Below, piece after piece: positions 16,276 through 37,025 of a stretch of DNA of 42,987 nucleotides. The position numbers and the translations under genes are program-made. The notes below the pieces were generated by a model. The model did not search any database, was not told the DNA's origin, and was given only the letters and a program-made list of their open reading frames with translations. Origin of the DNA: Desulfobacteraceae bacterium (GTDB lineage Bacteria; Desulfobacterota; DSM-4660; Desulfatiglandales; B25-G16); NCBI GenBank assembly GCA_030615105.1, contig JAUWZV010000006.1, forward strand, positions 1 to 42,987, written 5' to 3'. Numbering within the stretch: the stretch's first letter is position 1; every line of letters starts with the position of its first letter.

Positions 16276-17457
16276 TCAATGGTTCTTGAGGTACGCTAGC
16301 GCTACATGCGCCATCATCTCAGCCCCCACTACTAAGGCATCCTCGTCAAAATCAAACCGGGCATTATGGTGAGGCTGGTCAAAACCTTTTTCGGCACTGC
16401 CCGCCCCCACGAAGAAATAGCACCCGGAGACTTCCCTGAGAAAAAAGGCCATATCATCGCTTATCATAACTGGCGGGATCTCGATAACTTGTTCGGCCCC
16501 GACTACCTGAACACCCACGTCCTTGACTAGCCCGGTCATGGCAGCATCGTTGAAGACTGGGGGATAGCCAAACTGATAATCCAGTTTGTACGTCCCTCGA
16601 AGGGCCGTCGTCACGCCTTTGACGATACGGTCTATCCGCTCAGACATGGACTTTCGGAGGATCTCATCATGGGTCCTCACCGTCCCCTTAAGTTCCACAT
16701 GTTCGGCCACAATGTTGAAGGCGTTGCCACCGTGAATCGTACCAACGTGAACCACAAGGGGTATCATTGGGGAGACTTCTTTGCTAATGAGGCTCTGAAG
16801 CGTAGATATCACTTGAGCGCTCATAAGGATGGCGTCCGCGCCCTCCTCCGGCATAGCACCATGCGCGCCCTTTCCCTTGATCTTAATGGTGAAAGCGTCC
16901 ATACAAGCCATCAAGGGCCCGGCGCGTAGTGCCACAAAGCCAATGGGGAAACGCGTCATCAAATGTAGGGCAAAGACCGCATCCACCTGAGGGTCCTTCA
17001 ATACCCCATCCTCGATCATGAAGCGGGCGCCGGCCAAGCCCTCCTCACCCGGTTGAAAGACGAACTTGATCCGGCCTGAAAAGTCTTCATGATGAGCAGT
17101 CAAAATCTTGGCTACAGTCAGGAGAATGGCCATGTGCCCGTCGTGGCCACATGCATGCATAATCCCTTCGTTTCGCGAGCGATACGGCACATTGTTCTTT
17201 TCATGGATGGGCAAGGCGTCCATATCTGCACGAAGCAAAACCGTCTTGCCTGGATTTTTCCCCTTAAGCAATCCTACAACACCGGCTCTGCCTATGCTGG
17301 TGTTTACTTCCAGGCTGAGTTCGCCAAGTCGCCTTGCAATGTTTTCAGAGGTGCGTTTTTCCTCCATGCCTAGTTCGGGATACTGATGAAACCCCCGACG
17401 TATTTGAATCATTTCATCTTTGAGACTCAGGATTTCATCTTTAATAAAATCATCCAC
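16276..17457 (-). CDS. M20-family amidohydrolase (hippurate/N-acyl-amino-acid hydrolase type)
   Basis: This 393-residue cytoplasmic metallohydrolase cleaves an N-acyl or N-carbamoyl bond to free an amino acid. The N-terminal RRGFHQYPELGMEE motif, RADMDALPIHE (metal-bridging Asp), MHACGHDGHMA and FQPGEEGLAGARFMIEDG (catalytic Glu) are typical. The internal dimerisation domain has GKGAHGAMPEEGADAI, and HHNARFDFDEDAL supplies the last ligand. A GTG start at 17457 follows AGGAGG at proper spacing. It lies upstream of, and is probably co-transcribed with, the ridA scrap and the desulfidase-like gene, and seems more GC-rich than the ligase upstream. The substrate is open. An N-carbamoyl- or N-acyl-cysteine is possible from context only. 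Confidence 0.9.
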   Translation of the reverse strand: MDDFIKDEILSLKDEMIQIRRGFHQYPELGMEEKRTSENIARRLGELSLEVNTSIGRAGVVGLLKGKNPGKTVLLRADMDALPIHEKNNVPYRSRNEGIMHACGHDGHMAILLTVAKILTAHHEDFSGRIKFVFQPGEEGLAGARFMIEDGVLKDPQVDAVFALHLMTRFPIGFVALRAGPLMACMDAFTIKIKGKGAHGAMPEEGADAILMSAQVISTLQSLISKEVSPMIPLVVHVGTIHGGNAFNIVAEHVELKGTVRTHDEILRKSMSERIDRIVKGVTTALRGTYKLDYQFGYPPVFNDAAMTGLVKDVGVQVVGAEQVIEIPPVMISDDMAFFLREVSGCYFFVGAGSAEKGFDQPHHNARFDFDEDALVVGAEMMAHVALAYLKNH

Positions 17458-17498: not shown

Positions 17499-19022
17499 TT
17501 AAAATTTTCCACCATGGTTTTTCTTCACTTGATTTCGATCAATTTCACCGTCAGTAGTCTTAGGTAAGACATCAACGTAAACTACGTATTTCGGTTTCTT
17601 GTACCGTGCAATCTTTGATGCCACGAAATCTATCAATTTTTGGGGATCGAGGGATCTTCCTGGCTTTATCACACATACTGCTTTTATTGCCTCGCCCCAC
17701 TGGGTATCAGGAACACCAATTATACTCACCTCAGCCACAGCTTCGTGATCAAGGATTGCCTTCTCTACCTCGGTGGGGTAGACATTTTCTCCTCCCGGCT
17801 TAATAAGCTCTTTCTCGGCCTTCCTCTCCACATAATATAGATATCCATCCTCATCAAAACGCCCTATATCCCCTGTATGATGCCAGCCATTTCGAAATGT
17901 GTACGCGTTGTCATTCTCCCTACCCCAGTATCCCAGGAATACTACCGGGGAGCGTACGCAGATCTCACCTGGCGTGCCAACTGAAACCTCATTGTCATAA
18001 TCATCAAAGAGGGCAACCCTTGATAAATGGGAAGGTTTTCCTACACTGCCTGGTTTCTCGTTAAAAGGACATGCGGTTATGATCATTGCCTCTGTCTGCG
18101 CATATCCGTTCCAGTACCTGGCATTAGGTGCAATCTTAAGGAAGCGTCGTATACTTTCGGGGTGATCAAGACCCATAACGTTTCTAATAGAAGAAATATC
18201 GTAGGAACCCTCATCGTATTTGTCCATAATTGTCTTCAGAATGGGCGGGAAACTGAAAAAGATTGTGCCTCTTTCCTTCTCTATGAGTTGAAGGCTGATT
18301 TCAGGGTCAAAACGTTCAAGGATCACGTTTTTCCCGCCAGCTTGCATCACTGCCATAGCCATACCAAGCCCAGCGGTATGAAACAGCGGTAGCACACATA
18401 TGTGGGCATCATCAGGGCCGAGATAATACTGTTGAATCGACATTACATTAGCGAAAACAATGTTGGCCTGGCTTAACAGAGCACCTCTGGGGAGGGAGTC
18501 TGATGCGGCTGTATAAATGATAACAAACCCGGAATCGGCTGAGATATCAATCTCTTTATCGGCTTCATCCTGGGAATAAAGTCCCTCAAAAGGGAGGAAT
18601 CCTTCCGGAACCTCACCCCCTCCAATGGTATAACACGTTTCTATTGATTTCACCTTTCTTGCCGCTTCTGCAACCATTTGCAGGTAATCCGGCCCGGCAA
18701 AAATAACCTTTGGGGTACAGTCTTTGAGGATATGCTCCACATCATTCTGTTGAAAACGCCAGTTCACTGGAACCAGGATTGCACCGATCTTGGCAGCTGC
18801 TCCGTAAAGAACCATAAACTCATCGCAATTGTGAGTGACGATTCCGAGGCGATCTCCCTTTGAGATACCCAAATGAATTAGACCGGCAGCAAGCTTATCG
18901 CACCTCTCTTTGAACTCTTTATGGGTCAAATATATATCATCAAAAGAAATTGAATATCGATACGGAAAATTTCTCGCATTATTATAGATAAAGTCATATA
19001 TGGTATAATCGTGATGGCCCAT
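17499..19022 (-). CDS. Class I adenylate-forming enzyme (acyl-CoA ligase-like) with altered active-site motifs
   Basis: The protein aligns along its 507 residues with acyl/aryl-CoA ligases (GYAQTEAM about 327, HHTGDIGRFDEDGYLYYVERK, GGENVYPTEVE). Two catalytic motifs differ from the norm. The nucleotide loop reads YTAASDSLPRGALLSQ (170-185) where most enzymes have YTSGTTGxPKG. The C-terminal PKTTDGEIDR has Glu493 at the place of the adenylation lysine (normally GKI). I have seen a similar TAA...PRG / DGEIDR pair in a ligase-like subgroup, so this may be a conserved variant rather than decay. The frame is intact, and AGGAGGTAATGT precedes the ATG. It may not form acyl-adenylate in the normal way. 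It lies between an acyl-CoA dehydrogenase and an M20 amidohydrolase. Confidence 0.88.
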   Translation of the reverse strand: MGHHDYTIYDFIYNNARNFPYRYSISFDDIYLTHKEFKERCDKLAAGLIHLGISKGDRLGIVTHNCDEFMVLYGAAAKIGAILVPVNWRFQQNDVEHILKDCTPKVIFAGPDYLQMVAEAARKVKSIETCYTIGGGEVPEGFLPFEGLYSQDEADKEIDISADSGFVIIYTAASDSLPRGALLSQANIVFANVMSIQQYYLGPDDAHICVLPLFHTAGLGMAMAVMQAGGKNVILERFDPEISLQLIEKERGTIFFSFPPILKTIMDKYDEGSYDISSIRNVMGLDHPESIRRFLKIAPNARYWNGYAQTEAMIITACPFNEKPGSVGKPSHLSRVALFDDYDNEVSVGTPGEICVRSPVVFLGYWGRENDNAYTFRNGWHHTGDIGRFDEDGYLYYVERKAEKELIKPGGENVYPTEVEKAILDHEAVAEVSIIGVPDTQWGEAIKAVCVIKPGRSLDPQKLIDFVASKIARYKKPKYVVYVDVLPKTTDGEIDRNQVKKNHGGKF

Positions 19023-19149: not shown

Positions 19150-20295
19150 CTAACCCAGTAGATTTCTGGCCATAACGAGTTTTTCAATCTCTGTTGTGGC
19201 CTCATAGATCTCTGTGATTTTTGCATCCCTATAGAGCCTCTGGACCTTGTATTCAGCCAGATAGCCATAGCCTCCATGCATCTGGAGGGCCATATCAGTG
19301 CATTTTACCGCCATCTGGCCACAAAATGATTTTGCAGCAGCAATGAGCTTGTGGTCAATATTTTTCTGATCAATTTTCCAGGCTGCTTCATAGACCAGGT
19401 TTCTGCCAGCCTGTATCCAGGTAAACATATCAGCAATCTTGAACTGGGTAGCCTGGAAAGAGGCCAAGGAGGCACCAAAGGCATGCCTCTTTTTCACATG
19501 CCTTATGCTTTCCTCCAGGGCAGATCGTGCTATTCCAACTGCCTGGGCAGCTATACCAGTCCTGTTAAGATTAAAGAGGTACATAGCCTCTTTAAAACCC
19601 TGTCCTAATTCTCCTATAAGATTAGTGCATGGGACCCTCACGTTATTAAAAGAAAGTTCAGCTGTATCAGATGCCCTAATGCCAAGCTTTCCAGTTAAAT
19701 GACTTGCCTCAAATCCTTCTCTGTCTGTCTCTACCATGATCATGCTGTGACGGTTATGTCTGTCTGGGTTATCCAGCTCTGTTACAACAAAACAAAGAAG
19801 ATAATCTGCCCGGTCTCCATTGGTGATAAACATCTTTGAGCCATTTATGATATAGTCACCGCCTTCCTTTATGGCCGTTGTAGATACAGCGCCTGCCAGA
19901 TCAGATCCAGCATCTGGATCAGTTATTGCACTACCCATAACTGCCTCACCTGTTACTAGTGGAGGGAGATACCTCTTTTTTTGTTCCTCAGAGCCAAAGG
20001 ACTGTATTATTTCCGCTCCAAAGGGTGAAGCCACAATTGCTATAGCTATGCCTGGATCAACAACAGTAAACTCTTCCATTATCAGGCAGTAATCCAACAT
20101 ACCCATGCCTAGCCCGCCATACTCCTCTTTAATCCATACCCCCACAAAACCAAGTTCAGCTGCCCTCTTAAAGATCTCCTCATCAAAAGACTCATCCCTG
20201 TCAAACTCTTCCGCCCTATCAGGAAACTCCCCTTCAGCAAATTCTCTGGCCGCCCTCTGGATGTCCCGCTGTTCTTTGGTGAGGTTAAAGTCCAT
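19150..20295 (-). CDS. Acyl-CoA dehydrogenase
   Basis: This FAD flavoprotein introduces the alpha-beta double bond into an acyl-CoA and passes electrons to ETF. The 381 residues show the N-terminal helical domain (EEYGGLGM), the ITDPDAGSDLAG FAD/substrate motif, NGSKMFITNGDRADY, and the C-terminal QMHGGYGYLAEYKVQRLYRDAKITEIYEATTE. Glu365 in YEAT is the expected catalytic base. GGAGG precedes the ATG. Substrate chain length or branching cannot be told from sequence. Its position beside the Liv operon and ligases suggests it serves the first oxidation step for an acid imported by that transporter. No etfAB in the window. Confidence 0.95.
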   Translation of the reverse strand: MDFNLTKEQRDIQRAAREFAEGEFPDRAEEFDRDESFDEEIFKRAAELGFVGVWIKEEYGGLGMGMLDYCLIMEEFTVVDPGIAIAIVASPFGAEIIQSFGSEEQKKRYLPPLVTGEAVMGSAITDPDAGSDLAGAVSTTAIKEGGDYIINGSKMFITNGDRADYLLCFVVTELDNPDRHNRHSMIMVETDREGFEASHLTGKLGIRASDTAELSFNNVRVPCTNLIGELGQGFKEAMYLFNLNRTGIAAQAVGIARSALEESIRHVKKRHAFGASLASFQATQFKIADMFTWIQAGRNLVYEAAWKIDQKNIDHKLIAAAKSFCGQMAVKCTDMALQMHGGYGYLAEYKVQRLYRDAKITEIYEATTEIEKLVMARNLLG

Positions 20296-21170: not shown

Positions 21171-21965
21171 TCAACCGAGCCATCTCTTTCTTCTCTTATA
21201 GTGCTTGACCTCCCTGTAGCTCTTTCTCTTTCCCAGTTCGCTAAGTCCCAAATAGAATTCCTTGATGTCCTCGTTTTCCTTGAGCTTGTCTGAGGGGCCA
21301 TCTATGACCACCCTGCCGTTCTCCATGACGTACCCGTATTCGGATAAACTCAGAGCTATCATTGCATTCTGCTCAACAAGGAAAATGGAGGTCTTCTCCT
21401 GAAGGTTGATCTCCTTAATGATCTGGAAAATTTCCTTAACCAGCATTGGACTCAGACCAATAGAGGGCTCATCGAGAAGCATAAGCTTGGGTCGGGCCAT
21501 CAAGGCCCGCCCCATCACAACCATCTGCCTCTCCCCCCCAGAGAGGTAACCGCTAATGCGGCCCTTCAGCTCGAGGAGAGCCGGGAAGTATTGGTAGATC
21601 CTCTCTATGTCCCTCCGGATTTCAGCCGCATCAGACCGGGAATAGGCCCCGACCTTCACGTTCTCATCCACTGTGAGGTGCTCGAAGAGCTTCCTGCCCT
21701 CCATAACCTGGACGATCCCAAGCCTTACGATATCCTCCGGGTCCATCCGACCGATCGTTCGGCCTTCGAACTCGATCCTTCCGTCCGTAACCTCCCCGAG
21801 CTCTGTATAGAGAACACCGGAGATCGCCTTCAGGGTAGTGGTCTTTCCCGCACCGTTGGCCCCGAGGAGAGAGACAATCTTTCCATCCGGTACCTGCATG
21901 GAGACCCCTTTCAGGACCAGGATAACATCATTGTATATAACCTCTACATTTTCTAAGCTAAGCAT
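21171..21965 (-). CDS. livF: Branched-chain amino acid-type ABC transporter ATP-binding protein LivF
   Basis: This is one of two ATPases of a Liv-type importer. Visible are Walker A GANGAGKT (35-42), the Q-loop region VQVMEGRKLFEHLTVDENV, the signature LSGGERQMVVMGRALM, Walker B LMLLDEPSIGLSP, and VEQN with the switch residue position. The LivF subtype is indicated by the GRKLFEHLTVxEN segment and short length. The 264 residues include a basic C-terminal tail of about 20 residues beyond the usual end (YREVKHYKRRKRWLG), which may reflect a lost stop. It starts 15 bases after the lipoprotein gene and is the last gene of the transporter operon. Confidence 0.94.
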   Translation of the reverse strand: MLSLENVEVIYNDVILVLKGVSMQVPDGKIVSLLGANGAGKTTTLKAISGVLYTELGEVTDGRIEFEGRTIGRMDPEDIVRLGIVQVMEGRKLFEHLTVDENVKVGAYSRSDAAEIRRDIERIYQYFPALLELKGRISGYLSGGERQMVVMGRALMARPKLMLLDEPSIGLSPMLVKEIFQIIKEINLQEKTSIFLVEQNAMIALSLSEYGYVMENGRVVIDGPSDKLKENEDIKEFYLGLSELGKRKSYREVKHYKRRKRWLG

Positions 21966-21980
21966 CGCCTCTTACCTGTC

Positions 21981-22487
21981 TCATTTCTTCTTAGGTGGGG
22001 CAAGGATCGTAAGGTTGCTCGACGCCTGTATTTCGGAATCCATACCAGTTGCCAGAATGGTATAAACCCCAGGTGGAAAAGGCTTCGCATTCTTGAAGTC
22101 GGGCTTTACACCTGTCTTCCTTAGAACCCATGGTACCTGTAGAAGCGTTTGCATGGTGGCCAGTGGCGCCATGGCGGCCTCGAAGTTCCCCTGTGAATCC
22201 GCCGTTGCAAGAGCCACTCCAACCGTATTCTCGCCCTCTTCTAGTCCTAGAATCCTCATGCCTTGAGGGAGCGCTATGTCCACCACTACCATTTCCTTTG
22301 GAGCAAATCCTGATCCCTTAAACTTAAGGGGTTTCTTGATGAGTGCTGGGGACACGATTGTCTTCTCAGGAATAGCCTGAAGCTGGGCCTTTGATTTGGC
22401 TTCTATACCCGCGCATCCTGTGAAGTGTAGGATTATCAGTCCCACAGCAAGAAAGATTCCTAAAACATTTCTTTGATATCCTCTCAT
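21981..22487 (-). CDS. Lipoprotein embedded in the Liv operon
   Basis: The 168-residue product has a basic N-terminus, a hydrophobic segment (8-20) and a lipobox-like HFTGC with Cys25, so it is likely a lipoprotein. The rest is beta-rich (LKFKGSGFAPKEMVVVDIALP, GVALATADSQGNFEAAM, FPPGVYTILATG), like an Ig/IPT-like sandwich. A strong GGAGG site precedes the ATG. It sits between livK and livF with short gaps. It may help capture or deliver substrate in the periplasm, but I know of no function and infer this from position only. Confidence 0.85.
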   Translation of the reverse strand: MRGYQRNVLGIFLAVGLIILHFTGCAGIEAKSKAQLQAIPEKTIVSPALIKKPLKFKGSGFAPKEMVVVDIALPQGMRILGLEEGENTVGVALATADSQGNFEAAMAPLATMQTLLQVPWVLRKTGVKPDFKNAKPFPPGVYTILATGMDSEIQASSNLTILAPPKKK

Positions 22488-22527
22488 GGCCTTTCCTCCT
22501 TTTTCACCTAAAACTTTAATTGATTAA

Positions 22528-23751
22528 TTACCACTTGTGCAAAGAAACGGTATCAGGACACCTCCGCCAGTCGGTAATAGGTACAATCTTTCCGCCTGTG
22601 ACTCTATAGAACTTGACATCTCTGGTTATCCGGCGAGATGTAGGGCTTAAATCAATCGGTCCCGTGATCCCTTTGGTATCCTCTCCTGTAATCTTTTGAA
22701 GGGCCCGGTAAACAGCCTCCCCGTTGAGCTTTTCATATCCCACGTCCTGCACAGCAACCTTGAGGGCCTTCTCAAACATTATCCCCAATGACATACCGAG
22801 CATGTAGGAGAATTGGACTGGGGGTTTACTTTTAGTGTAACGTTTCCATAGTTTGGCTAAGGGATGGGCCCTTGCGTCCACCCCTCGGATACCAGGGGAG
22901 CAGATCACCTCTCCTTCGAACTCTTCTGGATGAAACGCCACACCCGTTTCCATGGTGGTTCCCCAGACGCCGGAAATTAGCTGCACATCCTTCATCATGC
23001 CAAGGGCATAAGCATCCCGGACCACATTGCTATTTTCAGGGTCCGTCCCTGACACAAAGATGTACTTGGCCCCATAGTCTTTCAGGCGAGTCAGCCAAAG
23101 ATCGTGCTTGAGGGAGCCCACCGGGTAATACTCGGGTTTAAGGAGCTTTACCCCAATTTTTTCAGCATATTCCCTGCCACCAAGAAGGTTCTCCCTACCA
23201 AATGGGTTGTCCCATCCCATGTAACCCACAACTGGCTTTCCAGGATTTCCCTTTTTCTTCCAGTCATCAACCATCCAATCCATGCTGGCGCCAAACATGT
23301 CCTGGTATGGAGGAGCATAGGTGATTGCCCAACCAAGGAGGTTCTGAAAATAGCCAACTCCAGGGACCTGAATGGGTACCTTATCCCTCACCGTTAAGGG
23401 GTACAACGCCTTTCCGACGCCAGTGCTCGTTATCAAGATAAACACGAGCTTATGCTCTCTCCGGTACCTCTTGAAGGCCGATACCGCGCGGGACGTATCG
23501 TAACGGGTATCAAGTAAGATGGGTTTGATCTTCACGCCGTCAACCCCTCCTTGATCGTTCACGTAATTAATGTGATGACGTAAGCCCTCGTTAAAGGATA
23601 CAGTGATTCCAGCAATCGGTCCAGTGAAATCCTCTAAGCCCAGGTAGGTAACATACTTTTCTGCCCCTATACCCGAGGTCGGGTTAAACGCCATTGCCAT
23701 TGTCAAAAAAAGAGCGCCAAAAAACGCTAACAGCTTCTTCTTTTCCATCAT
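22528..23751 (-). CDS. livK: Liv-type ABC transporter periplasmic substrate-binding protein
   Basis: The protein has a signal peptide (MMEKKKLLAFFGALFLTMAMAF, cleavage probably near residue 29). The two-lobed type I periplasmic binding fold follows, opening with YVTYLGLEDFTGPIAGITVSFNEGLRHHINYVNDQGGVDG. That opening is standard for Leu/Ile/Val-binding-like proteins. The 407 residues fit the family. The ligand is not fixed by sequence: members near acyl-CoA ligases often bind aromatic or fatty-type carboxylates instead of amino acids (general knowledge). The gene follows livM with a 97-base gap, and the start has GGAGG. Confidence 0.93.
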   Translation of the reverse strand: MMEKKKLLAFFGALFLTMAMAFNPTSGIGAEKYVTYLGLEDFTGPIAGITVSFNEGLRHHINYVNDQGGVDGVKIKPILLDTRYDTSRAVSAFKRYRREHKLVFILITSTGVGKALYPLTVRDKVPIQVPGVGYFQNLLGWAITYAPPYQDMFGASMDWMVDDWKKKGNPGKPVVGYMGWDNPFGRENLLGGREYAEKIGVKLLKPEYYPVGSLKHDLWLTRLKDYGAKYIFVSGTDPENSNVVRDAYALGMMKDVQLISGVWGTTMETGVAFHPEEFEGEVICSPGIRGVDARAHPLAKLWKRYTKSKPPVQFSYMLGMSLGIMFEKALKVAVQDVGYEKLNGEAVYRALQKITGEDTKGITGPIDLSPTSRRITRDVKFYRVTGGKIVPITDWRRCPDTVSLHKW

Positions 23752-23848
23752 GCCCTCCTTTTCTCCTTCTGAGTTGTTGATTTAGATGATTACATAAAAA
23801 TAAATTGCGCATATTATGTTTTTCTCGATCACCTCCCTCCTTTTTCTG

Positions 23849-24895
23849 TTAATAGGCAAAGGGATAGAGCCTGTAGGATTCCTTGATGACCTCCCAGCGA
23901 TGTGCAAGCCCCCTTGGCTCAAAGATTATAAATAACAACAATGCCATCCCGAAGGCGCTTAGCCCGAGAGCAGCGCCTGGCCCAGGCCCTAGCCATGGAA
24001 ATAAACTTGAAAGCATAGGGGAGCTAAAAAGGACTATCTCGTCTAAAAGCCGCACGAAGAGAACCCCAAAGAATACGCCGGGAATACTCCCCATGCCTCC
24101 TATGATTACCATCCCCACATACCAAATCGCATGCATGAAAGTGAACTGCTCGGGATGAACGACCATATAATAATGAGCCCACAAAGACCCTCCCAGTCCT
24201 GCATATACGCAGGAGATGAAAAAGGCCAGGAGCTTATAATAATAGAGATTCACCCCCATGACCTCTGCTGCTAGATCGTTGTCATTGATGGCCACAAAGG
24301 CTCTCCCTACCTTGCTCCTAAACAGATTTCTGGCTGCAAAGGTCGAGATTACCATCATGGTTACGATTAGGTAGTACATTCTCTCTTCAGTATCCAAGAC
24401 TATATTTCCAATCTGCGGAGGCGGGGGATGGAGGCCTTGGATTCCCCCCGTGATTTTTAGATGCATAATAATCCACATGATCACGAAATGGGCGGCGAGG
24501 GTGGCCATTGCCAGGTAAAACCCCTTTATTCGCAGAGATGGGGCCCCGCTGATCATGCCGACGATCCCTGCTGAAAGACCAGAAAGGGGAAGGGCGATCC
24601 AGAAGCTAATACCATAAGTGGCCGTGAGAATAGCGGATGTATAGGCCCCCACTGCCATAAAGGCCGGCTGTCCCAAGGAAATCTGGCCACAGTAACCCAT
24701 CACTATTTGAAGGCCCAAGATCACGATAATGAGGATGCTCAATAAATTTATCAGGCTGATCAGGTAATAGGAGCCGTAGAAGGGAAAAGTGTAGAGAATT
24801 ACCAGGGCACCGATCAGGGCCAGCCAATGCTGCCAGGTTCTTACAATCGCTATATCCTGAATATACCGTTCGTCAAAGACTCCACATGGACGCAT
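23849..24895 (-). CDS. livM: Liv-type ABC transporter permease LivM
   Basis: A permease of 348 residues with eight or more hydrophobic helices. The family signature GYCGQISLGQPAFMAVGAYTSAIL (about 66-89) is present, as is the cytoplasmic coupling segment SKVGRAFVAINDNDLAAEVMGVNLYYYKLLAFFISCVYAGLGGSLW. The C-terminus has EPRGLAHRWE. The ATG follows the livH stop by three bases, so the two permeases are translationally close. It forms the membrane pore with LivH. Confidence 0.95.
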   Translation of the reverse strand: MRPCGVFDERYIQDIAIVRTWQHWLALIGALVILYTFPFYGSYYLISLINLLSILIIVILGLQIVMGYCGQISLGQPAFMAVGAYTSAILTATYGISFWIALPLSGLSAGIVGMISGAPSLRIKGFYLAMATLAAHFVIMWIIMHLKITGGIQGLHPPPPQIGNIVLDTEERMYYLIVTMMVISTFAARNLFRSKVGRAFVAINDNDLAAEVMGVNLYYYKLLAFFISCVYAGLGGSLWAHYYMVVHPEQFTFMHAIWYVGMVIIGGMGSIPGVFFGVLFVRLLDEIVLFSSPMLSSLFPWLGPGPGAALGLSAFGMALLLFIIFEPRGLAHRWEVIKESYRLYPFAY

Positions 24896-24898
24896 CTG

Positions 24899-25783
24899 TT
24901 AAATCCTTTCTATCCTTACAAGTCCAAATAAACCGTAGGGTTTCACCAGCAAGATCACGAGGAGCATAAAGTAAGCCGCTACCTCTTTTACTCCTCCGCC
25001 TACTATAGGATCCAGGTAACCCGCGCTGATATTTTCCAGTATCCCGAGGATAAGCCCCCCTAAAAGGGCACCGGGAAGTGACTCCAGCCCGCCCACGAGG
25101 GCCACGATCAACCCCTTAATCCCTAATAAAGGATAGGAATAATAGATGTCAATGACATGAGCCGTGGAGATGCCGGCGATCGCTGCCACCACGGAGGACA
25201 CAACCCATATTACTGAAAACATTTTCTTCACGCTAATACCAGTACTCTGAGCTAACTGATGGTCCTCAGCAGTGGCCCTCATGCCAAGACCAACCTTGCT
25301 ATACCGGAACATGAGCCCTATGATACCGAAAACCGCCATGCTAAGGACGAAGCTGATGGCCTGTCCTTCAGGGATTCTCAGCCCTCCAACCAATAGGCTT
25401 TCTCTCGGCAAAAACTTGGGAACGCCCAGGATCCCCCCCTTCAGGATTAAGAGGAACACCCCATCGAAAACCACGAATACAGCGAAGGTAACCAAAAAAG
25501 CGGCAAACAGGGGCTGGCCAATCATGGGCCTGAGAGCTAAGCGTTCTATCACAAAGCCCATAACGCCGATGGCAAGGAAGCACAGAAGTAAGGCAATGAT
25601 AATGGGCAGACCAAAATATCCAAAAAACAAATAGAAAAAAAAGGCCCCGAAAGCTAAAAGCTGACCATGGGCTATACTCACTGTTTTGGTCGCCTTGTAA
25701 ACGAGGACGATAGACACTCCGACCAGAGCGTAAACTCCCCCTTCCATTAAACCCAGAATTAAAAACTGCAAAAATGTGCTCAA
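24899..25783 (-). CDS. livH: Liv-type ABC transporter permease LivH
   Basis: This 294-residue polytopic protein begins with a TTG codon at 25783 behind a G-rich ribosome site. The helices start with FLQFLILGLMEGGVYALVGVSIVLVYKATKTVSIAHGQLLAFGAFF, a standard LivH opening. The coupling loop KVGLGMRATAEDHQLAQSTGISVKKMF is present, and GLESLPGALLGGLILGILENI closes the protein. It pairs with LivM. Position: downstream of the acyl-CoA ligase, upstream of livM. Confidence 0.94.
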   Translation of the reverse strand: MSTFLQFLILGLMEGGVYALVGVSIVLVYKATKTVSIAHGQLLAFGAFFFYLFFGYFGLPIIIALLLCFLAIGVMGFVIERLALRPMIGQPLFAAFLVTFAVFVVFDGVFLLILKGGILGVPKFLPRESLLVGGLRIPEGQAISFVLSMAVFGIIGLMFRYSKVGLGMRATAEDHQLAQSTGISVKKMFSVIWVVSSVVAAIAGISTAHVIDIYYSYPLLGIKGLIVALVGGLESLPGALLGGLILGILENISAGYLDPIVGGGVKEVAAYFMLLVILLVKPYGLFGLVRIERI

Positions 25784-25893
25784 TGATCTTCCCCCCTTCT
25801 TTCCCTACTCTAAGATGGTTTCTAAAAAGGTTAAAACAAACAACATTTAGCAACTAAGAGGGAGAGGCTATTGCTGTGTTAGCCCTCTCTAAA

Positions 25894-27852
25894 TTACGAC
25901 TCAAGTCTATTGAGCTTAATTGCCGTGGTGATTACGCCTTTCCTTCCGTCCCGATAGGTCACGGGTGACTCAACCTTTAACTCCTGGAGATCACTGTACA
26001 GGGCAGAAATCAGGTCTGCATAGCGCTCTTCTACGAAGGTCCGTCGAAGCTTCCGGGTCCTTGTCAACTCTGCCTCGTCTGCATCGAACTCCTTGTGGAG
26101 ATTCACAAACTTCTTTATGCGCGCGTGATTGGGAAGGGTCCGGTTGATTTTCTCGATCGCTTCCTTGATGATTTCGATCACCTCAGGTTTCTGGGAAAGG
26201 TCCGTGTAGGTGGTATAAGGGATCCAATGGGCCTCGGCATAGCGGCCCACATTATCAATATCGATATTGACCACGGCACTCACATAGGTTGTATGCTCTC
26301 CCCCAACAACGAGCACGTCCCTGATAAAGGGACTGAACCTCAACCTTGCCTCTGCGTACTGAGGGGAAAACTTTTTTCCCACGGCCAAAGGCTTCATATC
26401 ATCCATCCGGTCGATCACAATAAGATAACCTTCTTCATCAATGTAACCGTAATCGCCAGTATAATACCATCCGTCCTTGATCTTTTCCTGAGTAGCCTCT
26501 GGGTTCTTGTAGTATCCAGAGTACATTAAGTGGGTCTTCACCAGGATCTCTCCTTCGTCGGAAAGCTTTACATCGCACCAGGGAGTAGGCTTTCCCGAGG
26601 TCTCGGGACGGATTTCTCCGGACTTTGGAAGGGTAACCAGCCCTACTTCAGTGGTTCCGTAAAAGAGCGCAACGTCCAGACCAAGGACCTTGTAATACCG
26701 GATTATCTCGGGACTCATCGACGCCCCTCCAGTCAGGACCATTTTTACATTACTCAACCCCAATCTGTCCCGAAGCTGTCTGAAGACGGCATAATAGGCA
26801 ATTAAATAGAGAGCCCTCCAGAATAAGTTCGGCCTCCTTCTCTCGTAATAAAGGTCCGCAATCTTTAGGCCTACTGGAAGAAAGGTTTTGTAAATCAAGC
26901 GCCTAAAAAAAGTGGTGTCCAGCATCTTGGCCTGGACCATGCGATTCACGGACTCCCAGAGTCTGGCACCGTATAAGAGGATTTTGGGCCCAATCTCTCG
27001 AAGGTCCTCCTGCACCGTCTCAGGTTCCTCGGGAAAGTCGATGACCACATTTGTTACAACCCAGCCAGCAATCCCACACATCTGCTCCGAAAACCAGGCT
27101 GGTGGAGCAAAGGAGACGTAATTATATCCCTCCTTACCAAACCACCCCTGTAATTTGCTCATCTCCCTTTGACCCTCAGCCAGCATCAAATGACTGATCA
27201 AGGCTCCCTTGGGAACACCTGTGGTCCCTGAGGTGTAACAGATAGTGGCAATGTCTTCGCCCTTTCCCTGATCGAGCATCTCCTCGAAAAGCCCAGGATG
27301 GTCCTTTTCGTACGCCCGGCCGAGCTCGAGAACTTCCTCAAATCTCATCAAGATGGGATCCCTGTAAGTCCAAAGCCCTTTCGGCTCCCAGTAGATTGTC
27401 TTTTTGAGAAGAGGAAGCTGATCCTTGATCTCAAGGATCTTATCCACCTGCTCCTGGTCGTGGGCTATGACGAACTTCGATTCCGAATGTTCCGCGTAAA
27501 ACTTGACCTCAGAGGGAATACAATCGGTAAAAATACCAACAGCGATGCCTCCAGCGGCCTGCGTGGCCAACTCGGCCCAGTACCACTCTGGTTTGTTCTC
27601 ACCCAGGATAGAGACCTTGTCCTCTCGCTCCAGTCCGAGGCTTACCAGTCCCAGAGAGAAAAACTTAACCTTCTCGTAGCACTCCCTCCACGTATAACTC
27701 TGCCAGATGCCCCGGTCCTTGACCCTCATAGCAACCCGTTTGGGTTTATGGAGATAGCTCATATAAAGGTGCTTTGGCAGGGTATCATCCTCTGATGATA
27801 TTTCCCCACCCAAGTTGAATCGTATTTTTTCTTTCTGAATTTCAGAAGACAT
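25894..27852 (-). CDS. Long-chain-type acyl-CoA ligase (AMP-binding) inside the Liv operon
   Basis: The ATG at 27852 is chosen because it follows the livG TAG by one base and has GAGGAGGAA upstream. A longer frame to 27918 overlaps livG. The 652-residue protein is of the long FadD/FAA type: TICYTSGTTGVPKGALISH, FYGTTEVGLVTLP, YYTGDYGYIDEEGYLIVIDRMDD, and an extended C-terminal lid with TRTRKLRR in place of the compact PKTxxGK motif, usual in the long group. It activates a carboxylic acid to its CoA thioester at the expense of ATP. Being second gene of the transporter operon, it likely traps the imported acid. Confidence 0.93.
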   Translation of the reverse strand: MSSEIQKEKIRFNLGGEISSEDDTLPKHLYMSYLHKPKRVAMRVKDRGIWQSYTWRECYEKVKFFSLGLVSLGLEREDKVSILGENKPEWYWAELATQAAGGIAVGIFTDCIPSEVKFYAEHSESKFVIAHDQEQVDKILEIKDQLPLLKKTIYWEPKGLWTYRDPILMRFEEVLELGRAYEKDHPGLFEEMLDQGKGEDIATICYTSGTTGVPKGALISHLMLAEGQREMSKLQGWFGKEGYNYVSFAPPAWFSEQMCGIAGWVVTNVVIDFPEEPETVQEDLREIGPKILLYGARLWESVNRMVQAKMLDTTFFRRLIYKTFLPVGLKIADLYYERRRPNLFWRALYLIAYYAVFRQLRDRLGLSNVKMVLTGGASMSPEIIRYYKVLGLDVALFYGTTEVGLVTLPKSGEIRPETSGKPTPWCDVKLSDEGEILVKTHLMYSGYYKNPEATQEKIKDGWYYTGDYGYIDEEGYLIVIDRMDDMKPLAVGKKFSPQYAEARLRFSPFIRDVLVVGGEHTTYVSAVVNIDIDNVGRYAEAHWIPYTTYTDLSQKPEVIEIIKEAIEKINRTLPNHARIKKFVNLHKEFDADEAELTRTRKLRRTFVEERYADLISALYSDLQELKVESPVTYRDGRKGVITTAIKLNRLES

Positions 27853-27853
27853 C

Positions 27854-28642
27854 CTATTCCTCCTCTTCCTCCCCTGCTCCCAAGTATGCCCGGATAACCT
27901 CAGGGTTGTCTTTGACATCTTGGGGGAGCCCCTCGAGAAGCTTATGACCGAAGTCCAGAACCATGACCCGGTCGGAGATATCCATCACTACCTCCATATC
28001 ATGTTCTACCAGGATAATGGGGATCCCTTTCAGTTCGGATATATCTAGAACGAACCTGGCCATATCCTCCTTTTCCTCAACGTTCATCCCCGTCATTGGC
28101 TCATCGAGAAGGATCAGTCTCGGCTCCGCTGCAAGAGCCCTACCAAGCTCTACACGCTTTCGCTGACCATAGGGAAGAAGAGCAACTAGCTTTTTTCGAA
28201 TGGGCTCCAGCTCCAGAAGGTCGATAATATCTTCGACCACCTTCCGGTGTTCGATCTCCTCCCTGCGTGTCAGGCCAAAGAAGAGGCAGGCCGATAAAGC
28301 TCCCCGCTTCATGTGAATATGGCGGGCGGCCATAAGGTTATCCAAGCTGCTGAGCCCTGTATAGAGCTCGATATTCTGAAAGGTTCGAGAGATCCCAAGC
28401 TTCGCTATTTTGTAAGGAGGCATACGGGTGATCTGCTTTCCCTCAAAGACGATCTCTCCCTGTTGGGGCTTGTAAAATCCGCTAATGCAATTCATGAGGC
28501 AGGTCTTTCCAGCACCATTCGGACCAATGATAGAGAGGATCTCGCCGTCTTTGACGTGGAAACTCACACCATCCAGGGCCTTTAGCCCCCCGAATCTGAG
28601 GTAGAGGTCTCGAACTTCTAAGGGATGTCTGTTTTCCTCCAT
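27854..28642 (-). CDS. livG: Liv-type ABC transporter ATP-binding protein LivG
   Basis: First gene of the transporter operon, 262 residues. Walker A is GPNGAGKT (40-47). The LivG-type ISRTFQNIELYTGLSSLDNLMAARH precedes the signature segment, here LPYGQRKRVELGRALA in place of the canonical LSGGQ, as is normal for LivG. Walker B is LILLDEPMTGMN and the switch histidine is in LVEHDMEVV. The gene ends in TAG, and the ligase ATG follows after one base, indicating coupled translation. The promoter should be in the 226-base gap upstream, where nothing definite is seen. Confidence 0.95.
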   Translation of the reverse strand: MEENRHPLEVRDLYLRFGGLKALDGVSFHVKDGEILSIIGPNGAGKTCLMNCISGFYKPQQGEIVFEGKQITRMPPYKIAKLGISRTFQNIELYTGLSSLDNLMAARHIHMKRGALSACLFFGLTRREEIEHRKVVEDIIDLLELEPIRKKLVALLPYGQRKRVELGRALAAEPRLILLDEPMTGMNVEEKEDMARFVLDISELKGIPIILVEHDMEVVMDISDRVMVLDFGHKLLEGLPQDVKDNPEVIRAYLGAGEEEEE

Positions 28643-28890: not shown

Positions 28891-29340
28891 TCACAAATTT
28901 CCTTTCCCTTCCATGATTGTTTGGGTTCGTGTAAGCTTCATTTTTGGGTTAAAACCCTCAATTATTTCAAAATTACGACCACATGACAATAAGCTTCCAA
29001 ATTCCAACATTCCTGTATCCCTGTACATTTCGGCATATCTGCAGCGTGTGACATTAAAGAAAAGTTTCCTATCGGTCTTTTCCAAAACTTCGATTTTTAA
29101 TGCATCATCCTTGGTCCAGACGTCCAGTCCCTTGGCGAAATCTGCAATGGTGTCTCCCTCCATAAGTTTAGCAAGTTGGGTGCCACTTTCCCGTGCCAAG
29201 CCTTTGATCACTCCTTCTGCTATCTGCAGTGTCTTTTCCTTTCCTAATTCCTTCATGAACGCCTTTATCAGGGGGGCTACAATGCGAGCTTCGATTTCTC
29301 TTCTCGAGAGAATATCTATTTTGCTGAGATCTTGGGTCAT
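28891..29340 (-). CDS. ATC-hydrolase-like protein (PF14196 type), C-terminus shifted by one extra base
   Basis: The 149-codon frame matches the second copy at 35330-35800 throughout: RREIEARI, APLIKAF, DFAKGLDVW, RCRYAEMYRDTGM, LLSCGRNFEIIEGFNPKMKLTRT and TIMEG. It then ends GKGNL-stop, while the paralogue continues HNHCDFRITLE. Removing one T from the TTT at about 28888 restores GKGNCDFRITMK and a stop at 28869, giving exactly 156 residues like the paralogue. The lost tail carries a conserved cysteine, so the protein as read is probably impaired. The family is named for L-2-amino-thiazoline-4-carboxylate hydrolase, which opens a thiazoline ring toward cysteine, but most members are untested. 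Start supported by GGGGG. Confidence 0.8.
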   Translation of the reverse strand: MTQDLSKIDILSRREIEARIVAPLIKAFMKELGKEKTLQIAEGVIKGLARESGTQLAKLMEGDTIADFAKGLDVWTKDDALKIEVLEKTDRKLFFNVTRCRYAEMYRDTGMLEFGSLLSCGRNFEIIEGFNPKMKLTRTQTIMEGKGNL

Positions 29341-29463
29341 TTTATACCCCCGAATCTTGGATGATTCAAATTATTCTAAAAGAAAATAGATATAGCTTCC
29401 GAAACTCATCTCGTCTAATAAATATATCCCTTAATGTAGCTTAAGCTTTCAAACCGCGGTACT

Positions 29464-30255
29464 TTAACGGCATTTAAATTTAGGCTCTCTCTTTTCTGCA
29501 AAAGCCCTTGGACCTTCTTGTGCGTCTTCGGTGCCAAGTAAAAAATTTGCATATGAAGATTCTAAAGCCAAAGCTTCATCTAGCGGAAGATCTAAACCCC
29601 GATAAATAGCTGCTTTGGCTGCCCTTACAGCAAGCGGGCCCATCTGACAGATTCTCTCAGCCAATTTTGTTGCTGTGTCCATAAGTTCGGTTGATGCCAC
29701 AACCTTGTTAACCAACCCAAGTCGATACGCCTCTTGCACATCGATCTGTTCGGCGCATAACATCATTTCTAGAGCTTTGCCGAGGGGAATCAAGCGGGGC
29801 AGTCTTTGAGTACCCCCTGCGCCAGGAATGAGCCCCCAACGGACTTCCATCAGCCCAAACTTAGCATTTTCAGCAGCTATCCTGATATCGCAAGCCAAGG
29901 CTATCTCAGTTCCACCAGCAAGGCAGATTCCGTTTATCGCTGCTATGATGGGTTTCCATATTTTAAAATTTTTTGTAATTCCACCAAAGCCAAGATTGTA
30001 ACTGTCCTCATCCATCTTCTCCCGTGCGGTTTGTTTTACCACTATAGGTATGAATTTTTTCAGGTCTGCTCCTGCGCAAAAGGCCTTCTCACCAGCTCCG
30101 GAAAGGATGGCTACCCATAAATCGGGGTCATCCCGAAAATCTGACCATGCCTCAGCCAGCTCTTTGCTTGTTTCCATATCTATGGCATTCATAGCCTCGG
30201 GCCGGTTAATGGTAATGTAGGCAATCTTTCCCTTCTTCTCATAAATGATAGCCAT
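29464..30255 (-). CDS. Enoyl-CoA hydratase/isomerase family protein
   Basis: A crotonase-fold enzyme of 263 residues that adds water to a trans-2-enoyl-CoA. The oxyanion-hole stretch is FCAGADLKKF (59-68). The second glycine-rich loop is LAGGTEIALACDIRIA. Both catalytic glutamates are present, Glu117 (GGTEIA) and Glu137 (GLMEVRWGLIPGAGGTQRL). GAGGAAT precedes the ATG. It works between the acyl-CoA dehydrogenase and the hydroxyacyl-CoA dehydrogenase encoded nearby. Confidence 0.95.
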   Translation of the reverse strand: MAIIYEKKGKIAYITINRPEAMNAIDMETSKELAEAWSDFRDDPDLWVAILSGAGEKAFCAGADLKKFIPIVVKQTAREKMDEDSYNLGFGGITKNFKIWKPIIAAINGICLAGGTEIALACDIRIAAENAKFGLMEVRWGLIPGAGGTQRLPRLIPLGKALEMMLCAEQIDVQEAYRLGLVNKVVASTELMDTATKLAERICQMGPLAVRAAKAAIYRGLDLPLDEALALESSYANFLLGTEDAQEGPRAFAEKREPKFKCR

Positions 30256-30404
30256 CAGGATTCCTCATGATCCTTAATTTTAAAAATTCCTCCAAAGGCT
30301 TTTTTAAAGCCGCTCATCTCCATGGTTTCCCACTTTACTGAATCCGCCTTTAAAATCTTTTAGAGGTGCTTGAACTAAAAAATTTAAATATTGAAAGTTT
30401 GAAT

Positions 30405-31259
30405 TTATTTCTTATAGTCATAAAATCCTTTGCTAGTCTTTCTCCCTAGATGACCTGCTGCTACCATTTTTTTTAGTAAAATGGGCGGGGCATATTTCTT
30501 GTCCTTGTACTCCTCATATAAGGCATTTGCAACGTCCAATGTCACATCTAATCCGCTGAAATCCATCAGGGTAAAAGGACCCATGGGTAACCCAACGCCC
30601 TGCATCATCGCCTTATCAATGTCCTCTACGGTTGCGACTCCCCCTTCGAGTGCCCGAATCGCCTCCAGCCAATAGGGAAACATCAAGCGGTTGACAATAA
30701 AGCCACACCTATCTAAGGATGAAACCGGTTCCTTACCAAGTAATTTACCAAAGGCAACAACGGTTTCAAAAGTTTCATCGTTTGTCACGATAGATCGGAT
30801 AATCTCTAATAATTTCATGGTCTGGGCAGGATTGAAAAAATGCATCCCGATGACCTTCTCAGGTCTCTTGGTAGCAACTGCTATATCTATGATTGATAAA
30901 ACAGATGTGTTGCTGGCCAAGATGGTTTCTGGAATACAGATCTCATCAAGCTTTTTAAAAATCTCTTTTTTGAGAGCTAAATTTTCAAAGACAGCCTCTA
31001 TTATGATCTGGCAATCCCCCAGATCTGCTAAATCGGTTGCCCCCTTTACATTAGACAGGATTTGATTCTTGTCCTCCTCGGTTAGTTTCCCCTTCTCAAT
31101 CCTCTTGGAAAGCCAGCGAGAAATAGAGTCAAGGCCTTTTTTGAGCAGCTCCTCAGAGGCTTCACTGACGACAGTTTCATATCCTGCCCGGGCAGATGCG
31201 ATCGCAATACCAGATCCCATTGTCCCGCTACCCACAACACCAACTTTCTTAATCTCCAT
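30405..31259 (-). CDS. 3-hydroxyacyl-CoA (3-hydroxybutyryl-CoA) dehydrogenase
   Basis: NAD(P)-dependent oxidation of a 3-hydroxyacyl-CoA. The 284 residues match the short monofunctional form. The Rossmann motif GVVGSGTMGSGIAIASARAGY is at 7-27. NTSVLSI and GMHFFNPAQTMKLLEII carry the catalytic His (about 138). GFIVNRLMFPYWLEAI and LPMGPFTLMDFSGLD belong to the helical dimer domain. GGAGG precedes ATG 31259. It follows the ligase at 31389-32918 in the same direction and precedes the hydratase. Confidence 0.95.
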   Translation of the reverse strand: MEIKKVGVVGSGTMGSGIAIASARAGYETVVSEASEELLKKGLDSISRWLSKRIEKGKLTEEDKNQILSNVKGATDLADLGDCQIIIEAVFENLALKKEIFKKLDEICIPETILASNTSVLSIIDIAVATKRPEKVIGMHFFNPAQTMKLLEIIRSIVTNDETFETVVAFGKLLGKEPVSSLDRCGFIVNRLMFPYWLEAIRALEGGVATVEDIDKAMMQGVGLPMGPFTLMDFSGLDVTLDVANALYEEYKDKKYAPPILLKKMVAAGHLGRKTSKGFYDYKK

Positions 31260-31388
31260 ATTCTTCCTCCTTAAATAATAATCTATCGGAATATCGCTTC
31301 TTTAAGGCTCTTCTTTCGTGGTAAAGAGAAAATCTCAAGAGCTTTTTCCATCTATGATTATTTAGGTTCGTTATAAGAAATTACCCTA

Positions 31389-32918
31389 TCAGTATTTATC
31401 CTTCAGCTCTCTTTTTAAGGTTTTTCCTGTAGTTGACTTAGGCAGGGTTTTCATGAACTGAACCTCTTTGGGCTTCTTATAACTCGCTAACTTTTCCTTG
31501 GTATAATCTATAATTTCTTGCTCAGTCGCTGTCTCACCCTCTTTCAGAACAACATACGCTTTAACCTTTTCTCCCCACTCGTCATCTGGCTTGCCTACAA
31601 CTGCTGCATCTGCCACCTTCGGATGAGTAAACAAAACTTCTTCAACCTCTCTAGGGAAAATATTGATCCCCCCGCTGACTATCATATCCTTCTTTCTATC
31701 TTTAATGTAAATATATCCATCCTCATCCAGTACAGCCATATCCCCAGTGTGCAGCCAGCCATCGGTGAATGCCTTTGCTGTTTCTTCCGGCATCCCGAAA
31801 TACTCTTTCATATTATGCTCACACTTAATAATTATCTCGCCTATCTCGGTGAGGTCTTGCTTAATATCTGTACCATCAGCCCTTACTACTCTTATCCAGG
31901 CGTTGGGTAGCTCGCGACCGCACGATCTTAGTCGCTGTAGTTCTTTCTCTGTGCCTTCCAGCTTATGGTCTTCAACTGGGAGACAGGTAACAGAAGCAGT
32001 TGATTCCGTCAGTCCATAGCCTTGAAAAAAAATATTTCCGAATCTCTTTATTGACTGCCTGATCACCTCCAGCGGCATAGGGGCTGAACCGTAGCCAATA
32101 TATCGCAGGCTGGAGAGGTCATATTTGTCAATATCTGGATGCTGAAGCAGCCGAAAAACCATAGTGGGTACTACAAATGTCCCAGTTACTCGTTCTTTTT
32201 CCACTGTTTGTAAAAATATCTCAGGAGAATATTGCTCGGTAATAACAACGGGGCAGGCAATATACATTGCCGGCACTACTGTGCAGTTGGTTGGAACGGT
32301 AAAATATAAGGGATGAAGTGTCATGAAAATTTCATTATGGTATCTATATCCGCTGCCAATCAGCTGATCCTCAGCTTCTTTTATTATGGCATCATTGGTT
32401 AGATATCCCCCTTTTGGCAGTCCTGTGGTTCCGCTCGTGTAATATAAAAGGAGGCCATCTTCGCCACTTACCTCTTCATGGGGATCATCCGCAGGGTATT
32501 TGGTAAGCAGTTCTTCATAGTTGTGCATGCCATCAGGAGAGCCGCCCACACAAATAACGTGCTTTACGGAGTCCCATTCTGGGAGTACCTTATTAGCATG
32601 ATTGTCACCTACTATGAGGGCTATAGACTGAGCGTTTCCGATCAAGTGGCTGAGTTCTTGTTTTAGAGCCGTGCTGAGAGGGCTCATGACGAAGCCACCC
32701 TTAGCTGCCGCCCCCAAAATCTCATAGTGTTGTTGACAGTTGTCAAGAATCACACTGATTCTATCGCCTTTTTTTATGCCCAATGCCTTTAGAGCATTCG
32801 TTAATCTGTTTACCCGCTCCTCATATTGTCTGAACGTAAAGCGGTTCTCTTTGAAAACGAAAGCAAGGTCATTAGGAAACCGCCTTGTATTTCTTCGTAT
32901 TATAGCGGCTAATAGCAT
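31389..32918 (-). CDS. Acyl-CoA ligase (AMP-binding), canonical motifs
   Basis: The 509-residue class I adenylate-forming enzyme has the full set of motifs: LYYTSGTTGLPKGGYLTNDA, GYGLTES, LHTGDMAVLDEDGYIYIKDRKKDMIVSGGINIFPREVEE, and PKSTTGKTLKREL with the catalytic lysine. It converts a carboxylic acid, ATP and CoA to acyl-CoA, AMP and PPi. Related enzymes handle fatty or aromatic acids, and the substrate cannot be chosen from sequence. AGAGGAAG precedes ATG 32918. It is the second gene of the thiolase-ligase-dehydrogenase-hydratase run. Confidence 0.94.
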   Translation of the reverse strand: MLLAAIIRRNTRRFPNDLAFVFKENRFTFRQYEERVNRLTNALKALGIKKGDRISVILDNCQQHYEILGAAAKGGFVMSPLSTALKQELSHLIGNAQSIALIVGDNHANKVLPEWDSVKHVICVGGSPDGMHNYEELLTKYPADDPHEEVSGEDGLLLYYTSGTTGLPKGGYLTNDAIIKEAEDQLIGSGYRYHNEIFMTLHPLYFTVPTNCTVVPAMYIACPVVITEQYSPEIFLQTVEKERVTGTFVVPTMVFRLLQHPDIDKYDLSSLRYIGYGSAPMPLEVIRQSIKRFGNIFFQGYGLTESTASVTCLPVEDHKLEGTEKELQRLRSCGRELPNAWIRVVRADGTDIKQDLTEIGEIIIKCEHNMKEYFGMPEETAKAFTDGWLHTGDMAVLDEDGYIYIKDRKKDMIVSGGINIFPREVEEVLFTHPKVADAAVVGKPDDEWGEKVKAYVVLKEGETATEQEIIDYTKEKLASYKKPKEVQFMKTLPKSTTGKTLKRELKDKY

Positions 32919-32987
32919 GCTCCATCTTCCTCTTGTTGTGTGAATTTTACAGATTTATTACTCTGATTATCTAGATTCTTTTTCAAT

Positions 32988-33023
32988 AAATTCATCAATC
33001 GGCATCAACCGATTGATGAATTT
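32988..33023. repeat. Perfect 15-base stem-loop between thiolase and ligase genes
   Basis: AAATTCATCAATCGG (32988-33002) pairs perfectly with CCGATTGATGAATTT (33009-33023) across a six-base loop. It lies 13 bases beyond the thiolase stop on the transcribed minus strand. Only TTTATTG follows, not a long T-run, so it may stabilise the 3' end or attenuate the transcript rather than stop it fully. Confidence 0.6.
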
Positions 33024-33035
33024 TGGAAGGCCCCA

Positions 33036-34253: not shown

Positions 34254-34434
34254 TATTAGGTATCCTTTCCTTATTTAATCTATTATGCTGAGTGTATTTG
34301 TGGCCTCAGTTACAGTCATTTGGGTATGTAAAATACTCGTCATCTGTCATTACATTCTTTCTGTTACACAAACAGTAACCCTGGTTGTTTTTTCTAGATG
34401 CAGACACCTTTCCTTGTGGTTATACATCACCTTT

Positions 34435-37017: not shown

Positions 37018-37025
37018 CCTCCCTC

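Follow-up and report, generated by a model that had tools for sequence, protein, structure and literature searches.

A widespread clade of acyl-CoA ligase relatives without adenylation motifs, predicted to act on acyl-adenylates made elsewhere

P0001, encoded in a 42,987-nt stretch of DNA from a Desulfobacteraceae bacterium (the window), is a relative of the acyl-CoA ligases that belongs to a conserved family, the 3IVR clade. Since the ATP-side parts of the ligase have been lost, P0001 probably performs only the second half-reaction, as reported for PtmA2. On balance, we favor a working non-adenylating ANL enzyme that would pass to CoA an acyl group from an acyl-adenylate made elsewhere. Judged from its sequences, the clade appears to add a new and widespread branch, one that serves catabolism, to a kind of enzyme that is known but rare. 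If it works like PtmA2, non-adenylating ligases would be common, and they would serve degradation rather than antibiotic synthesis. The labels long-chain-fatty-acid CoA ligase and AMP-binding protein would then be wrong for many genes, as would pathway predictions that count clade genes as activating enzymes. Moreover, the movement of acyl-adenylates between enzymes, an old question, would become testable in a simple operon.

The frame of P0001 is intact, as the initial annotation had stated, running from ATG to stop without internal stops. Its product is a member of the ANL superfamily, with the two-domain fold and with both Pfam domains above their gathering scores (PF00501, 243.5 bits, and PF13193, 66.8 bits, against cut-offs of 29.9 and 24.5). 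Among the 25 listed of the 106 NCBIfam models matched, P0001 scored below the curated cut-off of each. The A3 region (residues 168-184, IIYTAASDSLPRGALLS) departs from the canonical pattern [TS]SG[TS]TGxPKG, and the A10 motif reads LPKTTDGEIDR, with Glu493 aligned to the position of the catalytic lysine, which is absent. Both the altered P-loop and the glutamate in place of the A10 lysine had been pointed out from the DNA, and they are borne out by the motifs of P0001 and by a census of 94 clade members. Only part of the P-loop change is typical of the clade, namely Ala172-Ala173 (94/94), and Ser174 and Ser176 are peculiar to P0001, its relatives having Val or Ile at 174 (93/94) and Gly at 176 (93/94). 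The A7-A8 region keeps Arg400, Lys408, Gly410-411 and Asn413. However, the other motifs are not quite normal, as had been supposed, because two residues, Ala402-Glu403, are inserted at the hinge; this insertion (402-403) is absent from 30/30 canonical ligases, 25/25 ACSL-type ligases and 8/8 PtmA2-like proteins. P0001 shares the fold, the A5, A7 and A8 motifs and the two-domain architecture with canonical ligases (PRK06187, FadD, 4CL, CBL) and differs from them in the absence of Gly173 and of the A10 lysine and in the presence of the hinge insertion. Changed A3, lost A10 lysine and kept adenylate- and CoA-side residues are the combination that marks the PtmA2 kind, and P0001 has all three.

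Features of the window around P0001 (positions of the whole stretch)
Feature	Position	Strand	Evidence
P0001, 507-aa ANL-fold acyl-CoA ligase relative, adenylation motifs absent (3IVR clade)	17499..19022	-	ORF, Pfam and PDB matches
A3 / P-loop codons of P0001, residues 171-180, TAASDSLPRG	18483..18512	-	sequence, census
A7-A8 hinge and A8 loop of P0001, residues 400-413, RKAEKELIKPGGEN	17784..17825	-	census
Codon of Glu493 of P0001, A10 lysine position	17544..17546	-	sequence, census
M20-family amidohydrolase, directly downstream of P0001, 41-nt gap	16276..17457	-	profile matches
Acyl-CoA dehydrogenase, directly upstream of P0001, 127-nt gap	19150..20295	-	Acyl-CoA_dh domains
Liv-type ABC transporter: LivG, (ACSL-type ligase), LivH, LivM, LivK, small lipoprotein, LivF	21171..28642	-	gaps of 110 nt or less
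ACSL-type acyl-CoA synthetase, 674-aa ORF, true start probably later	25894..27918	-	intact A3 and A10
Upstream part of catabolic cluster, spanning the canonical ligase	28891..38196	-	Pfam/NCBIfam matches
Canonical 509-aa acyl-CoA ligase (TSGTTGLPKG, TTGK)	31389..32918	-	above PRK06187 cut-off

The best PDB relative of P0001 was 3IVR (475.6 bits); PtmA2 came next, at 249.7 bits, with identical alignments for 5E7Q and 5UPQ, which thus represent the same protein. 3IVR, a putative long-chain-fatty-acid CoA ligase from Rhodopseudomonas palustris CGA009, lies within the clade of P0001 (46% identity) and shares its hinge insertion. Its motifs are IIHTAAVGGRPRGALIS and AKGAIDR, so that A3 has VGG where P0001 has SDS, and residue 493 is Ala instead of Glu. 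A literature search for the function of 3IVR gave nothing relevant, and published activity of any clade member was not found in the literature searched. Similarly, no publication on the clade could be recognized from titles, abstract beginnings and passages of a mostly non-subscription literature.

Relatives of P0001 at E ≤ 1e-3 are encoded in 458 stretches of public genomes, not all of which are necessarily clade members; the best 80 of the 458 each contain one, at 458 bits or more. With the host included, clade members were present in 37 of 61 related genomes (E ≤ 1e-100) and in 31 of 247 genomes drawn across the phylum (E ≤ 1e-110). The named genomes that carry the nearest relatives of the gene are MAGs of Desulfobacterales and other 'Deltaproteobacteria', so that the host, an uncultured bacterium, is probably desulfobacterial. 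The host itself, a draft genome of 171 contigs and 81% completeness, encodes a second member, 46% identical and preceded by genes for a LivF-like protein and for a predicted lipoprotein of small size.

For the census, proteins scoring more than 400 bits to P0001 were taken as clade rows, ORFs shorter than 440 aa (including the partial members L087 and L090) were excluded beforehand, and 17 duplicates were dropped from 111 rows, leaving 94 distinct sequences. At A3, these have Thr171 in 93, Ala172 and Ala173 in all 94, and Arg179 in 89 or Lys179 in 4. At position 493, Lys occurs in two, Glu in 33, Ser in 22 and Ala in 19, the rest having other residues. Canonical ligases in the same alignment keep Gly173 and Lys493 in 19/19 cases each, and a larger canonical set keeps Gly173 and the A10 lysine in 30/30 each. 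Eleven residues are invariant in the clade (94/94): His215, Gln309, Glu311, Asp385, Arg400, Lys404, Lys408, Gly410, Gly411, Glu412 and Asn413. Furthermore, Trp442 is present in 93/94 members versus 6/19 canonical ligases. The census thus indicates that the ATP side has been changed and that the adenylate and CoA side is unusually conserved, several of the kept residues serving both half-reactions. A conserved clade with these motifs, whose absence had been named as a ground against a changed reaction, therefore exists.

The clade is under strong purifying selection. The proposed dN/dS check (Nei-Gojobori) was computable in five of seven close pairs and gave 0.036, 0.082, 0.091, 0.040 and 0.099, dS being saturated in the other two. 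For pairs involving P0001, dS was saturated in 16/16 and hence dN alone is usable; its low values (0.166-0.320) against saturated dS suggest purifying selection on P0001 itself. Decay of the window copy within an otherwise functional clade would agree with a P-loop whose Ser174 and Ser176 each set it apart from 93/94 rows and with the fragmentation of a nearby serine-dehydratase-like gene. However, such decay is highly improbable, because the frame is open and of clade-typical length, dN to relatives is this low while dS is saturated, and the second half-reaction does not need the P-loop.

Our first tree comprised 75 proteins (37 of 74 dereplicated clade rows, 8 PtmA2-like and 30 canonical, all 25 ACSL-type rows being excluded). 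With all columns, SH-aLRT supports were 100 for the clade, 100 for the PtmA2 group and 99 for the two joined. After removal of six long-branch canonical rows and of the A3, hinge/A8 and A10 columns, the corresponding values in the second tree were 99, 100 and 94, the last lying below the tool's mark of 95. The 3IVR clade is thus monophyletic and sister to the PtmA2 group, and their shared descent apart from canonical ligases appears well supported, if not certain. P0001 stands outside the PtmA2 subfamily proper, in a separate clade that keeps Arg400 and Gly411 and carries the hinge insertion. The simplest reading would be that adenylation was lost once, ahead of the split between the two clades, and that a lysine was regained at position 493 at least twice. 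The two lysine-bearing members, L072:2913-4427 (DGKTDR) and L102:10001-11518 (AGKTNR), sit on separate branches and retain TAA. Taken together, the existence of the clade, purifying selection in the computable pairs, the kept residues and the sisterhood to PtmA2 lend good support to the earlier suggestion of a changed reaction rather than a dead gene.

PtmA2 from Streptomyces platensis (5E7Q, 5UPQ, 5UPS, 5UPT) is reportedly a non-adenylating acyl-CoA ligase, and mutants of it are reported to regain some adenylation. Like P0001, it has the ANL fold and TAA in A3 and lacks the A10 lysine, and the two have Glu311, Asp385, His215, Lys408, Asn413 and Lys475 in common. All eight PtmA2-like proteins compared have TAA, and none has the A10 lysine (0/8). 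In passages of a review (PMC6594144), PtmA1 and PtmA2 appear to catalyze the two half-reactions separately, and in the parts of the literature searched a split acyl-CoA ligase reaction was found only in the platensimycin/platencin pathway. On the other hand, PtmA2 is only 31% identical to P0001, and neither Arg400 nor Gly411, both kept by the clade, survives in the PtmA2-like proteins (lost in 8/8); the mechanism may therefore differ. Furthermore, PtmA2 is biosynthetic, whereas the commonest ligase neighbor of the 3IVR clade is an ACSL-type enzyme in Liv operons.

Work on 4-chlorobenzoate:CoA ligase (CBL) allows the substitutions in P0001 to be weighed. In passages of one report (PMC8388817), P-loop mutants whose numbering fits CBL lost activity 1,000-fold at Gly163, 4-fold at Lys169 and 2,000-fold at Thr161. 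By motif position, these residues correspond to Ala173, Arg179 and Thr171 of P0001, so that the costliest position is kept. Passages of another report describe that K492A slows adenylation in CBL and that Lys492 faces solvent in the thioester conformation (PMC6122825). In that conformation CBL Asn411, which corresponds by motif position to Asn413 of P0001, touches the AMP phosphate (passages of PMC8388817).

A full ATP-dependent ligase with a rebuilt site, in which Lys404 or Lys408 (both 94/94) would replace the A10 lysine and the Ala-Ala P-loop would bind ATP, might explain why Asp385, Arg400, Glu311 and Thr171 are kept, as these also serve adenylation (the first three being residues of the first half-reaction as well as the second), and would accommodate the two members with Lys493. 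We consider it quite unlikely, since Gly173 and the A10 lysine, each found in 30/30 canonical ligases, are both lost, and since the sister protein PtmA2 has been reported not to adenylate. From homology and the residue pattern, thioesterification only, one of the two roles first suggested, appears to be the best reading.

If P0001 is non-adenylating, the following route may be envisaged. The acid would enter via the Liv-type transporter, and another ligase, perhaps the ACSL-type ligase of the window, would convert acid and ATP to acyl-AMP and PPi. P0001 would bind the acyl-AMP through its kept A5, A7, Arg400 and Asn413 sites and would keep or adopt the thioester-forming domain arrangement. CoA would then attack the acyl group on P0001 with release of AMP, which amounts to the second ligase half-reaction; these binding and transfer steps are drawn from PtmA2 and from the residues. 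Beside full ligases, such an enzyme could be of use in the rescue of adenylates leaving a slow ligase, in channeling, or with a partner that uses CoA poorly.

The AlphaFold2 model of P0001 (pLDDT 91.6, from 40 clade sequences) had 3IVR as its top Foldseek match, the coordinates of which cover only 393-394 residues, matching model residues 2-400. Over the full length, the model superposed on 5bsr (4CL with AMP and CoA) at 2.8 Å, 4g37 at 3.1, 5wm6 at 3.0, 5x8f at 3.5 and PtmA2 5ups at 4.0 Å, versus 10.6 Å for 4g36, 10.3 for 5bsm, 10.9 for 4fut and 11.7-11.8 for the other PtmA2 entries. When the canonical 509-aa ligase was modeled as a control (pLDDT 82.6, from 7 sequences), the reverse was seen, with 3.4 Å to 4g36, 4.1 to 5bsm and 4.0 to 4fut versus 10.6 to 5bsr and 10.7 to both 5wm6 and 5x8f. 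Partly from their titles, we take 5bsr, 4g37, 5wm6, 5x8f and 5ups to be in the thioester state and 4g36, 5bsm and 4fut to be in the adenylation state. With VIA-align 2, the P0001 model lay 2.6 Å from 5bsr and 3.0 Å from 5ups over about 490 residues, and 2.3-2.4 Å from benzoate-CoA ligases. The models would thus place P0001 in the thioester-forming arrangement and the canonical ligase in the adenylation one, which is suggestive only, with one best model each and 40 versus 7 aligned rows.

In the window, P0001 is one of a series of genes on the same strand, with a GntR-type regulator at one end and the M20 amidohydrolase at the other. The transporter genes carry Liv names that we presume from their sequences, and homologues of the Liv type recur next to 3IVR-clade genes in other loci. 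Between LivG and LivH sits the ligase which, from its motifs, we take to be of the ACSL type; its best NCBIfam model is FadD11, below the cut-off of that model. The canonical 509-aa ligase is a second candidate partner of P0001 and served here as control. Around it, the upstream part of the cluster also encodes a GntR-type regulator, a presumed cupin, an aminotransferase, two ATC-hydrolase-like proteins, a nitroreductase, a thiolase, a 3-hydroxyacyl-CoA dehydrogenase and an enoyl-CoA hydratase. No single substrate is indicated by this set of thiolase, dehydrogenases, hydratase, aminotransferase and M20 amidohydrolase. Homologues of the last above 60 bits were absent from the clade loci listed.

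The association with ACSL-type ligases extends beyond the window. In related genomes, such a ligase lies upstream on the same strand within 10 kb of 22/46 clade genes, about 1.2 being expected; as a control, 4/150 canonical ligase places in the same genomes lie within 10 kb of an ACSL-type ligase. These counts used 150 ACSL-type and 150 canonical places among the matches listed, the window's genes being in both and contig ends limiting both. From 120 of the 150 ACSL-type places taken with flanks, 119 complete ORFs were obtained, the window's own being excluded. As many as 113/119 adjoin at least two Liv genes, and 21/119 are linked to a clade gene at 1.2-6.5 kb. Conversely, no clade gene follows 43 ACSL-type ligases for which 7.5 kb or more of downstream sequence is available, and all of them (43/43) stand beside at least two Liv genes; the ACSL-type ligase therefore does not need a P0001-like protein. 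Of the 32 loci from named genomes with 9.3 kb on either side, 28 of them distinct, 14 include an ACSL-type ligase (on whichever strand) and 14 have at least two Liv genes. No other ligase lies within 10 kb in 16/32 of these fully flanked loci, including 5/6 from Rhodopseudomonas. Hence, over one large part of its range the clade goes together with Liv-ligase operons, and neither needs the other everywhere, as the 21 linked ORFs, the 43 without a clade gene and the 16/32 loci without another ligase indicate. An ACSL-type match (E ≤ 1e-90) occurs in 37/37 clade-bearing genomes versus 11/24 others (61 genomes), a comparison confounded by relatedness and genome size.

Whether the partner uses CoA poorly was approached through the otherwise conserved A8 glycine, a residue of the second half-reaction. 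Its loss was seen in 5/21 clade-linked ACSL-type ligases versus 1/43 unlinked ones whose downstream sequence spans 7.5 kb or more (Fisher p 0.012), and in 4 of 55 whose linkage is undecided on short contigs. This contrast is not independent, because four of the five linked cases are of one sequence type (ILNDxRPFAPQ) and three of the four undecided ones are much alike. The ligases of this or a similar type without the A8 glycine are L245, L246, L255 and L256, and also L200, L247 and L250; four of these seven adjoin a clade gene and three are on short contigs.

Since the cluster already has two ligases with intact motifs, an enzyme for the second half-reaction only looks redundant. This redundancy, together with the recurrent placement in Liv operons, would be explained by a non-catalytic binder or regulator (pseudoenzyme), which might for instance serve the Liv transporter or the ACSL-type ligase as sensor or scaffold. 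Such a role is improbable, because the invariance of His215, Lys408, Asn413 and Gly410-411 over 94 sequences goes beyond the need of a pure binder; the binding role offered initially as the other alternative is thus disfavored in its pure form.

Besides, clade genes sit in acyl-CoA catabolic clusters, at some loci together with thioesterases, hydratases and dehydrogenases, and such surroundings would also suit an ATP-independent acyltransferase that works in either direction between acyl-CoA (or acyl-AMP) and another thiol. AuaE of aurachin biosynthesis, which has the ANL fold and ligase ancestry, would be the precedent. In passages of a published account, this anthranilate-CoA:ACP acyltransferase also takes anthranilate-AMP, so that acyl-CoA or acyl-AMP serves as donor and a carrier protein as acceptor (PMC10295502). 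Against this reading, which we regard as unlikely, no carrier-protein gene was noticed in passing next to clade genes, and of the studied relatives that were compared (AuaE not among them) PtmA2 comes nearest.

Returning to the favored non-adenylating enzyme, one may tentatively imagine, with more doubt than confidence, that the ligase reaction is split in Liv-type uptake operons of desulfobacteria and proteobacteria, the ACSL-type enzyme making the acyl-adenylate and the sister of PtmA2 making the acyl-CoA. Such a split might serve to trap the substrate at its transporter, or else to rescue adenylates that leak or are slow. Titles and abstract beginnings of work on Liv operons that include ligases of this kind pointed to no pathway or substrate.

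Several further observations concern these loci. Within the window, two L-2-amino-thiazoline-4-carboxylate-hydrolase-like genes (PF14196; 28891-29340 and 35330-35800) lie in one catabolic cluster. The gap between LivF and the acyl-CoA dehydrogenase (20296-21170) is 875 nt long, AT-rich (36% GC) and free of long ORFs, the Liv genes being tightly spaced. A serine-dehydratase-alpha-like gene (PF03313; 14838-15955, upstream to ~16.1 kb, minus strand) is fragmented across frames, reflecting either a broken gene or a sequencing error. On a plasmid of Polaromonas sp. JS666, a clade gene (L128:10001-11518) is preceded by an alpha/beta hydrolase and followed, about 0.6 kb on, by a gene annotated as cyclohexanecarboxylate-CoA ligase; the Extensimonas locus L102 resembles it, and two ligases there group with the Polaromonas one. 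Finally, a PaaK-like ligase (431-451 aa) lies within 5 kb of PtmA2-like plasmid genes in 5/7 loci with 8-kb flanks (L134, L136, L138, L139, L142), the plasmids being actinobacterial and proteobacterial. The neighbor in L138 is annotated merely as AMP-binding protein, and the PaaK-like ligase is a possible adenylating partner of these plasmid-borne PtmA2-like proteins.
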